DNA of 64,000 bases, taken from Corynebacterium suranareeae. Lineage in GTDB: Bacteria > Actinomycetota > Actinomycetes > Mycobacteriales > Mycobacteriaceae. The notes under the pieces were generated by a model, which had not been told where the DNA came from, did not search any database, and worked only from the letters and a program-made list of their open reading frames with translations. The position numbers were made by a program, and so were the translations under genes. Location of the stretch: assembly GCF_002355155.1 (NCBI RefSeq), contig NZ_AP017369.1, positions 1,426,001 through 1,490,000 of the forward strand, in the 5' to 3' direction. Below are positions 49,562-54,719 of the stretch, piece by piece. How positions within the stretch are numbered: position 1 is the first letter of the stretch; every line of letters begins with the position of its first letter.

Positions 49562-49589
49562 TTGACATTTTGCCAGATCAAAATGTCAA
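49562..49589. promoter_or_regulatory. Perfect 11-bp inverted repeat, candidate operator
   Basis: TTGACATTTTG and CAAAATGTCAA are perfect arms around CCAGAT. It lies 198 bp upstream of the large XRE-nuclease-ATPase gene and 30 bp after the 48-bp palindrome. The absence of a T run argues against a terminator, and the XRE domain of the downstream protein is an obvious candidate binder (inference). The rest of 49590-49774 shows nothing clear. Confidence 0.5.
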
Positions 49590-49774: not shown

Positions 49775-49787
49775 TAATATTCGTTTA
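49775..49787 (+). promoter_or_regulatory. Putative leaderless promoter of the XRE-nuclease-ATPase gene
   Basis: The -10 hexamer TAATAT (49775-49780) ends 6 bp before ATG 49787, the same geometry as at 44891. No ribosome binding site is present upstream of the ATG. A convincing -35 was not found. Confidence 0.5.
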
Positions 49788-52700
49788 TGGCTGCAAATAT
49801 GGATGATGTTCCTTACCTAAAACTGGGTCAACTTATTCGATTATGTCGCGAGGCTCTCACAGTTAGCCAGTCAGCTCTGGCAGATCAGCTAGATGTCAAA
49901 CAGCAAACAGTTGATGGGTGGGAAAAGGGTAGGTCGAGGCCCCGACGGACAGCGCTTTCAACACTTTCTCTTCACCTCGGAATCGAGGAGGATCAACTTG
50001 TTGAGGTTGGTGGATATCGAGTCTCAGATAATTCGATTTCTCTTCCAGTCACCCCGTTAACTCGTACGCTTCCGCTTGATAAATTGCCTGAGGAACGATT
50101 TGAAGACCTACTAGTAGAAATCATGCGGTTGATTTTTCCCAATGGTCAACCCCACCTGTTTGGCGGTCGAGGACACAAGCAAGATGGCATCGATATTCTT
50201 GTAACCAGCGAGGGCGTCAATCTCGGGACTGGTCAGTGCAAGAGACATAAGGAATTTGGCCCGGCAGCAGTTCGAAAGGCAATTGATGCTGTAACAATCG
50301 AAGCTCCCAAGAACTATTTGTTTCTCAGCCGTGAAATTGCCTCTCCACAGGCTCGAAAAGAAGCAAATCGACATCCCAAATGGGAGCTTTGGGATGGTCA
50401 AGATATTTCTAGATACATCAGGACATTATCTACGGAAGTGGCTGTGAGAATCGTAGATACCTACTTTCCAGGGTATCGAGAGCCTTTTCTGGGTGTTGCA
50501 AATCCAAGCCCGTGGCTATTCGCAGAAGAGTATTTTGATGTAACTTCGAACCCACTGTTTAACCATGGCTGGAATCTGGCAGGTCGAGAGAAGGAACTTG
50601 CCGAAGTCGCACTGTTGGCGTTCTCAAAAAACATGTCACTTTCAACTGTGATCGGGTCAGGTGGTCTTGGTAAGACACGATTTTTGAAAGCGCTCTGTGA
50701 ACTTGCGCCATCTGATTTTCAAGTTCGGATACTTCCTGGTGACTCCCAAACATCGGTAGTAGATTTTGAATTACTCCCTCAAGTTTCAAATCTCACTGTG
50801 ATGATTGATGATGTCCACGAGATAGCAAGTGTTTCCCAGATCATTTCGGGAATCTGGCGTCGCAACCCTAAGGCGAGCATAGTTCTTGCAGTAAGGCCTT
50901 ATGGTCGGCAATATCTGAAAAGTGACCTGGAGCAAAATGGTCTTATTCCTGAATCTTCAGTCGAAGTAGAGCTCAAGGACTTAAGCTTCGAAGAAGCATC
51001 TGTACTTGCTCGTGAAGCTTTAGGTGAGGAAATTTCTGAAAGGGTAGTCCATCGACTTGCAGGACTCACAGCAGACTTTCCACTGATAACTGTTGTTGGT
51101 GGATCTCTAATCCGACAGAAGGAACTATCTCTTTTGTCGCTCGAACAAAGTGGAAATGTTCAATCAACGATCTTAAACAAGTTTAATGATGTACTTGTTA
51201 CGGACCAATCAACTACTGACCCGTCTCTGAGACGAAAAGTCCTAGATGCTCTTTCTGTGCTTCAACCATTTAGATCAAATGACCAAACAGCCCGACAGTC
51301 TCTCGAGAATATTGTCGGAAAGCCATTTGACGAGATCCAAAGGCAATTACGAAGTCTCGAAGAAGCAGGTATTTTGCGACGTCGTGGCAGGTCAATTCGG
51401 ATTGTGCCAGATCTCCTTGGAGATATTATATTGACGAGAGCAGCAATTGACGAACGAATATTTGAGAGTACCGGGTACCTTGAACGGATTGAACCTTTGA
51501 TCCAGGGGGACAGCAGAGATCACCTCTTTGTTAATGCGAGTCGTGTTGACCACCAACTTCTAAACCAGGATAGGTCGAAAGAAGGACTGGCTGCTCCTCT
51601 GTGGGATTCCTTTAATAAGAGAATTATGGTTGCGGACTTGGTTGATCGATGTACTCTTCTCAAAACTCTTGAGAAAGTAGCATACTTTCAGCCAAAACGG
51701 GTGTTGGAGATAGTCCGGTGGGTTATTGACAATCCCACAAATGTTGTTCACGAAGAAAACCGAATTTGGTTGAGCATTTATGGAAATGATTACAGCGCAG
51801 TATTGAACACATTGCCCTCACTACTCAAGCGAGCCGCTTTTAACTCCGAGATACTTCCAGAAGCACTAAACATATTATGGACTTTGGCTCAACTCGATGA
51901 GTCTTCTACGTCAAGTCGTTCAGACAGCGCGCTGGATGCGATAAGACATCTTGCGAAAATGGAGTGCACAAAGCCGATATGGTTTATCGATCAAATAATT
52001 GATACTGCGTCCACGTGGTTTTCGGGAACGCAAAAAATTTCACCTTTTAAAGCACTAGAACCAATCTTGGCAACTGAAGCAGAAGAAGTTCTAGGTGACG
52101 GCTATGTCTATACATTTCGAACATATGGATTTGATCCTAAAGGAGTCGCGCAGGTTCGCCAGAAGGCTATCGACCTTGCATTCAACGAACTTTGTTCATT
52201 GAATCTTCAGCATGCTGGAGATGCCGTAAAATTTATTGGACTAGCGATTCAGTATTCCCCCGGGAGCATCAAAAACAAGAATTTTCATGACGGATGGACC
52301 GATATTTTTGTTGATATTATTTCAAGATTGGGAACTATCGTTATTGATAGCGAATTAGACCCTGCAATTATAGTTAGTATTCGGGAAATCCTACGTTGGC
52401 ATGTGGCTTATGGCGCTGGATTGGCTCACGATGCAGCGAGAGACCTTGTAGATTCGCTCCCGGGCGACATAGAGTCAAGATTTGCTTTTGCACTTCATGG
52501 GAATTGGGAAGGTTTCTTCGACACCAGAAATGAAGAATTAAACTCAATTCATTTAGAGATTGATGCATATATTCAGAGTGTTATATTCGACCTAGCGCAT
52601 CTAACTGAAATTGAAGTATTTGATCTTCTTACTGTACGGCTAAAAGCTGAAAAGGAGGTTTTTCAAAGCAGTGCAATTAGTTCTTATGCATTTTTAATGG

Positions 52701-53884
52701 CTGTTATTGAAAACCTGCCAGGTATTGTGCCAAAAATTCTTTCATCACTGCAAGATTCCCCCTCTTCGATTTATGATCCGCTACTTTCGATTATCTTAGG
52801 AACATACGCAGCAGTAGCTCCAGGAGCAGCATTCAATCATATTAAGAGTCTGATCTCAGGAGAGGCAGAACATAGACGTCTTGCAGCGGTTCAATCATTG
52901 GGGTGGCATCGATCCGGACGAGCTCTCCACCCTGGTGAACTGAACTTAATTATTGACTTGGCTAAAGACCCTGAACAGCTTGTTCGCTTGAGTATTGCTC
53001 AAGTTATTCCAGTATTAGCTCGTGAATCACCTCAAGAAGCGAAGCAAATTTTTGTTGCTTTTAGATTTGGAGAGGATGCTGTTTTGGCAGATAAGATTTT
53101 TGCTGCTTTTGATGAAAGAGCTGGTCTTTCGTGGAATGATTTCTCAAGTTCAGAACTTGACGTGATGCTTGAAGATCTGATTGTGTTACCTCGAATCGAC
53201 TCTACTTGGGTAATTAAAGCTCTCGCAGACCGTTCAAAATTAGATCCAATTTGGATAGTGGATCTTTTGAAAGCACGGGTATTGAGAAGCGAAAGTGCTA
53301 ATCGGGTCGATGGTTATAGAGCGTTGCCTTTTTCTTGGCAGGCTGAGCTCCAAATACGCGGTACTGACAAGTTCCTTCCCATTATTCATGAAGTTCTAGA
53401 ATGGGTCGCGGAGATTCAAGATTCGACCTTTCAACGAGAGCAAAGGGCCGAGTTGTTTGCGGCGATTGTTAAAGATTTTGATGCTGAGATTGTTCAATTC
53501 TTGGTAGATGAAGTCGGAAAAAATAAAAAAGAGCTGACTAAAGCAATCGCCGCAGTTCTCAAGCAAGTCCCTAGAACATTCGTTTGGGAATATTCGGAAT
53601 TTGTAGCTACAGCTTTGCGTTCTGCAAAATTGATGGGGAATGATGTACTTTCGGCTTTGATGCGAGCGTTGTGGGATGCGACGACTCTTGGTTCTCGCAG
53701 TGGAACAGTTGGTGAACCTTATCCTGAATCAATTGAGCAGCGTGACAGGTCGCAAGCGATCGCTAGTGCAATGAAAGTCGGCTCAATCGAGCGAGATTTC
53801 TATCTTAGATTGGCAGAAAGCGCTATAAGCGACATCAAGCGAGATGGTGAATCAGATTCGCCTCCAGATGGGAGGGATTGGTGA
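49787..53884 (+). CDS. XRE - Mrr-like nuclease - STAND-type ATPase - helical repeat protein (candidate antiphage protein)
   Basis: The 1365-residue protein has four parts. Residues 12-70 form an XRE helix-turn-helix (VSQSALADQLDVKQQTVDGW). Residues about 100-215 form a Mrr/PD-(D/E)XK-type nuclease: D136 in DGIDI and Q150-C-K152 in GTGQCKRH give the D...QxK signature. Residues about 265-500 form a P-loop ATPase with Walker A G290-T297 (GSGGLGKT) and Walker B M339-I-D341-D342. The remaining 850 residues are predicted all-helical, with HEAT-like repeats around 1015-1110. STAND/Avs-type antiphage proteins share the nuclease-ATPase-repeat order; an N-terminal XRE domain is not part of those I know. 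Two hand-counted 60-base lines gave 33% and 45% GC against 58% in a gatB line, suggesting transfer. It is a single gene between gatB and an oxidoreductase. Confidence 0.85.
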   Translation: MAANMDDVPYLKLGQLIRLCREALTVSQSALADQLDVKQQTVDGWEKGRSRPRRTALSTLSLHLGIEEDQLVEVGGYRVSDNSISLPVTPLTRTLPLDKLPEERFEDLLVEIMRLIFPNGQPHLFGGRGHKQDGIDILVTSEGVNLGTGQCKRHKEFGPAAVRKAIDAVTIEAPKNYLFLSREIASPQARKEANRHPKWELWDGQDISRYIRTLSTEVAVRIVDTYFPGYREPFLGVANPSPWLFAEEYFDVTSNPLFNHGWNLAGREKELAEVALLAFSKNMSLSTVIGSGGLGKTRFLKALCELAPSDFQVRILPGDSQTSVVDFELLPQVSNLTVMIDDVHEIASVSQIISGIWRRNPKASIVLAVRPYGRQYLKSDLEQNGLIPESSVEVELKDLSFEEASVLAREALGEEISERVVHRLAGLTADFPLITVVGGSLIRQKELSLLSLEQSGNVQSTILNKFNDVLVTDQSTTDPSLRRKVLDALSVLQPFRSNDQTARQSLENIVGKPFDEIQRQLRSLEEAGILRRRGRSIRIVPDLLGDIILTRAAIDERIFESTGYLERIEPLIQGDSRDHLFVNASRVDHQLLNQDRSKEGLAAPLWDSFNKRIMVADLVDRCTLLKTLEKVAYFQPKRVLEIVRWVIDNPTNVVHEENRIWLSIYGNDYSAVLNTLPSLLKRAAFNSEILPEALNILWTLAQLDESSTSSRSDSALDAIRHLAKMECTKPIWFIDQIIDTASTWFSGTQKISPFKALEPILATEAEEVLGDGYVYTFRTYGFDPKGVAQVRQKAIDLAFNELCSLNLQHAGDAVKFIGLAIQYSPGSIKNKNFHDGWTDIFVDIISRLGTIVIDSELDPAIIVSIREILRWHVAYGAGLAHDAARDLVDSLPGDIESRFAFALHGNWEGFFDTRNEELNSIHLEIDAYIQSVIFDLAHLTEIEVFDLLTVRLKAEKEVFQSSAISSYAFLMAVIENLPGIVPKILSSLQDSPSSIYDPLLSIILGTYAAVAPGAAFNHIKSLISGEAEHRRLAAVQSLGWHRSGRALHPGELNLIIDLAKDPEQLVRLSIAQVIPVLARESPQEAKQIFVAFRFGEDAVLADKIFAAFDERAGLSWNDFSSSELDVMLEDLIVLPRIDSTWVIKALADRSKLDPIWIVDLLKARVLRSESANRVDGYRALPFSWQAELQIRGTDKFLPIIHEVLEWVAEIQDSTFQREQRAELFAAIVKDFDAEIVQFLVDEVGKNKKELTKAIAAVLKQVPRTFVWEYSEFVATALRSAKLMGNDVLSALMRALWDATTLGSRSGTVGEPYPESIEQRDRSQAIASAMKVGSIERDFYLRLAESAISDIKRDGESDSPPDGRDW

Positions 53885-54006: not shown

Positions 54007-54037
54007 CTTGACAAGTCAAGCAATTTAGCGTTAAAGT
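54007..54037 (+). promoter_or_regulatory. Promoter with palindromic -35 region
   Basis: CTTGAC-AA-GTCAAG (54007-54020) is an inverted repeat that contains a consensus -35, TTGACA. TAAAGT (54032-54037) is a possible -10 at 18-bp spacing. A regulator bound at the repeat would cover the -35. Confidence 0.5.
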
Positions 54038-54044
54038 AGGGACC

Positions 54045-54719
54045 ATGATCAAAGAACTGCTCAACAAACTCTTTGGAAACAAAGACGTTTCCCCAGCAAT
54101 GACTCAAACCGAAACCGCTACACACAAGGAGAACAACACAATGACCACTTACACCATCTTCGGCCGCGGCAACATGGCAACCGCTATCGCAGGCATCCTC
54201 ACCAAGGGGGGCGCAACTGTAGAGCACATTGGTTCTGCAGATTCTGCTTCCGCAAAGATTAACGGTTCCGTTGTTATCCTCGCTGTTCCTTACCCAGCTG
54301 TTGATTCCATCATTGCAGCTCACAAGGATGAGCTTGCAGGCAAGACCGTTATTGACATCACCAACCCACTAAACTTTGAGACCTTCGATTCCCTCGTTGT
54401 TCCAGTCGGATCTTCCGCTACCGCTGAGATTCAAGCTAAGCTGCCACAGTCTCGCGTACTGAAGGCTTTCAACACCAACTTTGCAGCTACCTTGTCCACC
54501 GGAAAGATCGGTGATATCACTACCACCGTGCTGGTTGCAGGCGATGATGCAGATGCCAAGCACGCTCTGATTACTGATGTCAACGCTGGCGGCTTAGACG
54601 CACTTGATGCAGGTTCCCTCAAGCGCGTTCACGAGCTTGAAGCTGTTGGTTTCTTGCAGCTCACCCTTGCTGGTTCTGAGAAGATCAGCTGGACCGGCGG
54701 ATTCGGCTTGGTTAAGTAA
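54045..54719 (+). CDS. NADP-binding (F420-dependent oxidoreductase-like) protein
   Basis: From ATG 54045 the product is 224 residues. Residues 33 onward (TYTIFGRGNMATAIAGIL) form a dinucleotide-binding Rossmann fold, followed by VVILAVPYPAVDSII, TVIDITNPLNFETF and LKAFNTNFAATL, as in NpdG-like NADP oxidoreductases. A second start, ATG 54141, has AAGGAG upstream and begins right at the fold, so the 192-residue form may be the real or major one. The 32-residue extension is not conserved in the fold. Substrate unknown. Confidence 0.82.
   Translation: MIKELLNKLFGNKDVSPAMTQTETATHKENNTMTTYTIFGRGNMATAIAGILTKGGATVEHIGSADSASAKINGSVVILAVPYPAVDSIIAAHKDELAGKTVIDITNPLNFETFDSLVVPVGSSATAEIQAKLPQSRVLKAFNTNFAATLSTGKIGDITTTVLVAGDDADAKHALITDVNAGGLDALDAGSLKRVHELEAVGFLQLTLAGSEKISWTGGFGLVK

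Follow-up and report, generated by a model that had tools for sequence, protein, structure and literature searches.

A candidate single-protein STAND immune sensor with an Mrr-type nuclease and a fused XRE domain in Corynebacterium suranareeae

What does a DNA-binding domain do at the front of a protein that otherwise looks like an immune sensor? We met this question in a 64,000-nucleotide (nt) stretch of the Corynebacterium suranareeae genome (NZ_AP017369.1, positions 1,426,001 to 1,490,000; hereafter the window), in which one gene encodes a 1365-residue chain with an XRE helix-turn-helix (HTH), an Mrr-type nuclease, a STAND (signal transduction ATPases with numerous domains) ATPase and HEAT-like repeats. 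A model reading the DNA alone (the first-pass annotation) had proposed a single-gene antiphage system of the STAND/Avs kind, with the XRE domain suggesting a sensor that also represses itself or is delivered to DNA. Our analysis favors a single-protein STAND immune sensor with an Mrr effector and, across the family, XRE autorepression, to which we assign a probability of about 0.75.

Domain architecture and effector swapping

The open reading frame ran exactly as first annotated, and translation placed Walker A (GSGGLGKT, residues 290-297), Walker B (MIDD, residues 339-342) and the nuclease residues D136 and Q150-C-K152 at the positions claimed for them. The hidden Markov model search proposed in the same annotation found HTH_3 and Mrr_cat (Table 1). 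It also gave matches below the Pfam cut-offs to nSTAND_NTPase5 (residues 280-370, E 1e-5), to the HTH_20 winged helix (residues 481-532, E 0.0035) and to HEAT_2 (residues 1018-1073, E 1e-4). The protein showed the features of a STAND ATPase (Walker A, Walker B with an acidic pair, a winged helix and C-terminal repeats) and those of an Mrr-type nuclease (a catalytic acidic residue and Q-x-K). The predicted fold of the ATPase module resembled NLRC4, Apaf-1 and NOD2, and the best Foldseek match was Avs4 (PDB 8dgf), an Mrr-STAND phage sensor. The order of nuclease followed by ATPase, as in Avs4, was confirmed for the 1365-residue protein. The helical repeats were present as a HEAT-like region, at about 800 residues rather than the roughly 850 first estimated. 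The family's C-terminal tail also contained a strongly conserved GTPGEPFPE..EQRDRS stretch (window positions 53684-53773), which is odd for a variable sensor end.

We performed a homologue search that scored only the 7994 candidates with the most words in common and yielded 100 rows including the query. At least 95% of the query was covered in 88 of these rows. In an alignment of 53 rows, picked by us for spread, E106, D136, Q150 and K152 were each retained in 52/53 members, and K296, D341 and D342 in 53/53. The exception among the nuclease residues was P0097, where DUF4062 replaces the nuclease. A second search used 10 distant members as queries; among the best 120 of 258 matches listed, the front domains besides Mrr were DUF4062 (many), caspase (P0133), EAD8 (P0134, P0138) and SMEK (P0153, P0163). 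STAND conflict systems usually exchange their effectors on an unchanging ATPase-and-repeat frame.

A rough motif scan of 219 family proteins detected an HTH in 84, all of which also had Mrr (83 by motif, P0072 by its Pfam entry). No HTH was detected in the other 135, comprising 62 with Mrr and 73 without, and some of the 62 Mrr-only proteins start inside the HTH as annotated. The annotated start of P0015, P0018, P0024, P0039 and P0047 (about 1312 residues) falls inside the HTH; gene callers may have chosen such internal starts because the true start is leaderless. Two of four loci without a fused effector, both in Streptomyces, had a PNP_UDP_1 gene directly upstream (L018:8904-9857 and L021:7115-8068), likely a two-gene version of the system. 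Another species of the genus (G029; L026, L069) had a distant Mrr-STAND gene with a 1329-residue open frame, 24% identity and no HTH seen. In L103 (G511), the family's C-terminal stretch lay inside a frame with a transposase-like beginning, apparently a broken copy.

A palindrome in the promoters of HTH-bearing relatives

The family profile matched the P22 C2 repressor (E 3e-9) and the 434 repressor (E 1e-7). The recognition helix of the 434 repressor begins with paired glutamines, as does that of the family XRE domain. We observed that the palindrome ACGCA-N5-TGCGT recurred upstream of HTH-bearing members. Across 22 HTH-bearing loci, with start-codon anchors picked by us, the best match within 60 nt before the start had 0 mismatches in 8 loci, 1 in 4, 2 in 5, 4 in 4 and 5 in 1. 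A copy with 0-1 mismatch was present in 12/22 loci versus 10/7696 background windows from the same loci (0 mismatches in none, 1 in 10, 2 in 146), and a copy with up to 2 mismatches in 17/22. This count is not an independent test, because the motif was discovered in these same loci; as a control, the arm letters were permuted in the 29 remaining ways, which matched 0 of the 22 loci at up to 1 mismatch.

The position of the palindrome was nearly fixed. Of the 17 site-bearing loci, 15 had a copy whose first base lay 26 or 27 nt upstream of the start codon (L008 by eye); the off-position copies were in L011 (31 nt) and L071 (19 and 56 nt). An identical 15-mer stood at 27 nt in Nocardioides gansuensis (L006) and in a Shapirobacteria bin (L022), and five loci (L003, L007, L009, L013, L071) had a second copy 19-37 nt apart. 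The best -10-like hexamer, taken from four allowed places, lay with its end 6-7 nt upstream of the start codon in 17/22 loci and overlapped the right end of the palindrome wherever one was present. The -35-like hexamer 16-18 nt above it varied between loci, from good matches such as TTGACA (L022, L025) to poor ones. The palindrome thus lies over the -35/-10 spacer, a placement typical of a repressor, and the promoter layout suggests a leaderless message.

None of five members without an HTH came within 3 mismatches of the palindrome. A pattern combining the palindrome with the -10 element matched 1-7 times in each of eight whole genomes at up to 1 mismatch, counting both strands (backwards control, 0-3), and by reckoned position all zero-mismatch matches fell at the gene's own promoter. 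Because ACGCA-N5-TGCGT lies in the promoter of many of the HTH-bearing genes themselves, the family XRE domain probably acts as an autorepressor.

Autorepression may or may not extend to the window copy. Its promoter had no family operator: the best match within the 60 nt upstream of the start codon had 5 mismatches (4 when a slightly different stretch was compared). The suggested self-repression through the XRE domain is thus strongly supported for the family but not by the window promoter. The site was also absent in L010, L012, L015 and L024. The window recognition helix, KQQTVDGW, carried D43, where 41/42 aligned members having that residue carried S. Among the 79/100 proteins that matched the helix pattern, 78 had S43, including the nearest relative (P0002), and the window protein alone had D. 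S43 was found in 17/17 loci with an operator site and 1/5 without (Fisher P = 7e-4), an association that is a lead rather than proof because the loci share ancestry (Nocardia supplies two of the exceptions). Either the window protein recognizes a different site or its autoregulation has decayed. An inverted repeat further upstream (Table 1) was the sole match in the window's genome at up to 3 mismatches. The automatic pick for the window's -10 element was AGTAAT, overlapping the TAATAT that we read from the sequence.

Proposed mechanism and alternative explanations

From the computed domains, the conserved catalytic residues, the predicted ATPase fold, the effector swapping and the conserved operator, we infer the following cycle. 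The resting protein would be inactive and ADP-bound. Its repeat region would bind a phage or other invader product, upon which the ATPase would open and the protein would oligomerize. The Mrr domains gathered in this way would cut DNA, so that the infection is stopped or the cell killed, which would give the protein its putative antiphage activity. In the family, an XRE dimer on the palindrome between -35 and -10 of its own, probably leaderless, promoter would keep this dangerous protein scarce. More tentatively, and somewhat doubtfully, trigger binding and oligomerization might draw XRE dimers off the operator and open the promoter, so that more sensor is made and a scarce guard gives way to a burst; in the window lineage, with no operator and D43, such a loop would have been lost or re-aimed.

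We weighed three other explanations. The target could be plasmids or other mobile DNA rather than phage, or the gene could be a selfish addiction element. A neighbor scan of 117 open reading frames from the 22 loci, which had no control set, found five integrases, three TrwC relaxases and three resolvases, and two alphaproteobacterial plasmids carry homologues. The scan also gave two Cas1 matches and one match each to a type IV restriction enzyme and PD-Lambda-1. However, Avs4, the closest structural relative of known target, senses a phage portal according to PMC12931631, and we consider a mobile-DNA or addiction role unlikely.

A transcription regulator like MalT, in which the STAND ATPase senses a signal, the HTH controls promoters and the Mrr domain is vestigial or helps to bind DNA, is quite improbable given the near-complete retention of the four nuclease residues. 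The zero-mismatch operator matches at the gene's own promoter in the eight genomes and the lack of an HTH on members with other effectors (motif scan) also argue against it. The invariable pairing of HTH with Mrr in the motif scan would fit an XRE domain that guides the nuclease to a site on DNA, as in a homing or site-guided restriction enzyme. Yet in 15 of 17 loci with a site, a copy is held at a fixed distance from the start codon, within the -35/-10 spacer, and cleavage there would destroy the enzyme's own gene, so we regard guided cutting as very improbable. The STAND immune sensor remains our preferred explanation.

Genomic setting and relation to known systems

The gene's 1-kb windows had a GC content of 0.42-0.46, compared with 0.48-0.55 across 6 kb on each side, in agreement with the AT-richness first reported. 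The description of the gene as alone between core genes was right on the left, where gatB was found in 61/61 sampled genomes of the genus, and wrong on the right, where the F420_oxidored gene had no match in 7/8 searched genomes of the genus (the eighth being the window's own). The palindrome right after gatB (Table 1) is a probable gatB terminator. A promoter-like site of its own precedes the F420_oxidored gene at 54008-54044, with TTGACA within the palindrome CTTGACAAGTCAAG.

Table 1. Features of the STAND locus in window coordinates
Feature	Position	Strand	Basis or remark
XRE-Mrr-STAND-HEAT protein, 1365 residues	49787..53884	+	ATG-start open reading frame, translation, homologue search
XRE/HTH_3 domain, residues 17-70	49835..49996	+	Pfam HTH_3, E 7e-9
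Mrr-type nuclease domain, residues 97-209	50075..50413	+	Pfam Mrr_cat, E 2e-6; E106, D136, Q150, K152
STAND ATPase and winged helix, about residues 260-545	50564..51421	+	Walker A 290-297, Walker B 339-342, D430-x-P432
Helical HEAT-like repeats, residues 552-1365	51440..53881	+	putative sensor
Possible -10 element TAATAT, six nt upstream of ATG	49775..49780	+	read from sequence; leaderless layout like relatives
Inverted repeat TTGACATTTTG-N6-CAAAATGTCAA, candidate alternative operator, unproven	49562..49589	.	198-225 nt upstream of start
48-nt perfect palindrome right after gatB stop codon	49485..49532	.	sole genome match at up to 3 mismatches
F420_oxidored (NADP oxidoreductase) gene, right neighbor	54045..54719	+	no evidence of belonging to the STAND system

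The two genomes with the most similar gatB (G044, G046) had no STAND gene after it, and gatB was followed by an aldo-keto reductase, which in the window lies beyond the STAND and F420_oxidored genes. In the G044 gap (L065), three short ordered pieces between gatB and the reductase resembled the F420_oxidored protein and look like what is left of a decayed copy. Because of this apparent remnant, the F420_oxidored gene is probably the older resident, and the STAND gene probably arrived separately, as about 4.5 kb of DNA. A joint insertion of the two genes was dropped in view of the same remnant at the empty site. The full-length protein was found in 1/242 genomes of the genus, the window's own, and a phylum sample, in which few candidates were scored, gave a match at 1e-40 in 3/396 genomes. 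A Rhizobium etli homologue was surrounded by HEPN, HNH, helicase, AAA and MoxR genes.

Avs4 (AVAST type 4) has an Mrr nuclease at its N-terminus and TPR repeats. The window protein is like it (8dgf) in joining a STAND ATPase to a long C-terminal repeat region and unlike it in the additional XRE domain and the HEAT-like repeats. Avs4 was absent among the best 60 of 127 PDB matches listed for the family profile. With E values up to 1, the window protein matched 13 PADLOC families: ten on the HTH (HTH_VI, RmrA) and three, weakly, on the winged-helix region (Csa3 twice, CARF once). Because no AVAST model was among them, it is not an Avs member by this test; a STAND/Avs-like architecture, as proposed, is supported by sequence and fold, by the swapping of effectors and by the patchy distribution.

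The window protein is related to immune receptors from animals and plants; NLRs and Apaf-1 (NLRC4, NOD2, NLRP3) differ from it in their front and back domains. The nSTAND_NTPase5 proteins (PF25199) share the ATPase family and swapped effectors, but most lack an XRE domain in the motif scan, and the window score is under the Pfam cut-off. The family profile matches lambdoid-type XRE repressors (P22 C2, 434), whereas here the XRE domain sits within a 1365-residue effector protein. CapW/BrxR-type regulators (PMC9122588, PMC9122601, PMC9122589) likewise place a dangerous defense system under transcriptional control; they are separate WYL proteins, whereas here the repressor is fused to effector and sensor.

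We found no description of an XRE-fused, self-repressing STAND nuclease family in the literature searched. Another STAND effector with a nuclease is ordinary and the fused XRE domain is unusual; what is new is the operator inside the own promoter of many HTH-bearing genes. How bacteria hold suicidal immune sensors silent but ready is an open question. Here the sensor is seemingly its own repressor, and the operator is recognizable both in Actinobacteria and in a bacterium from a candidate phylum, which makes the circuit testable and provides a DNA signature for locating more members of the family.
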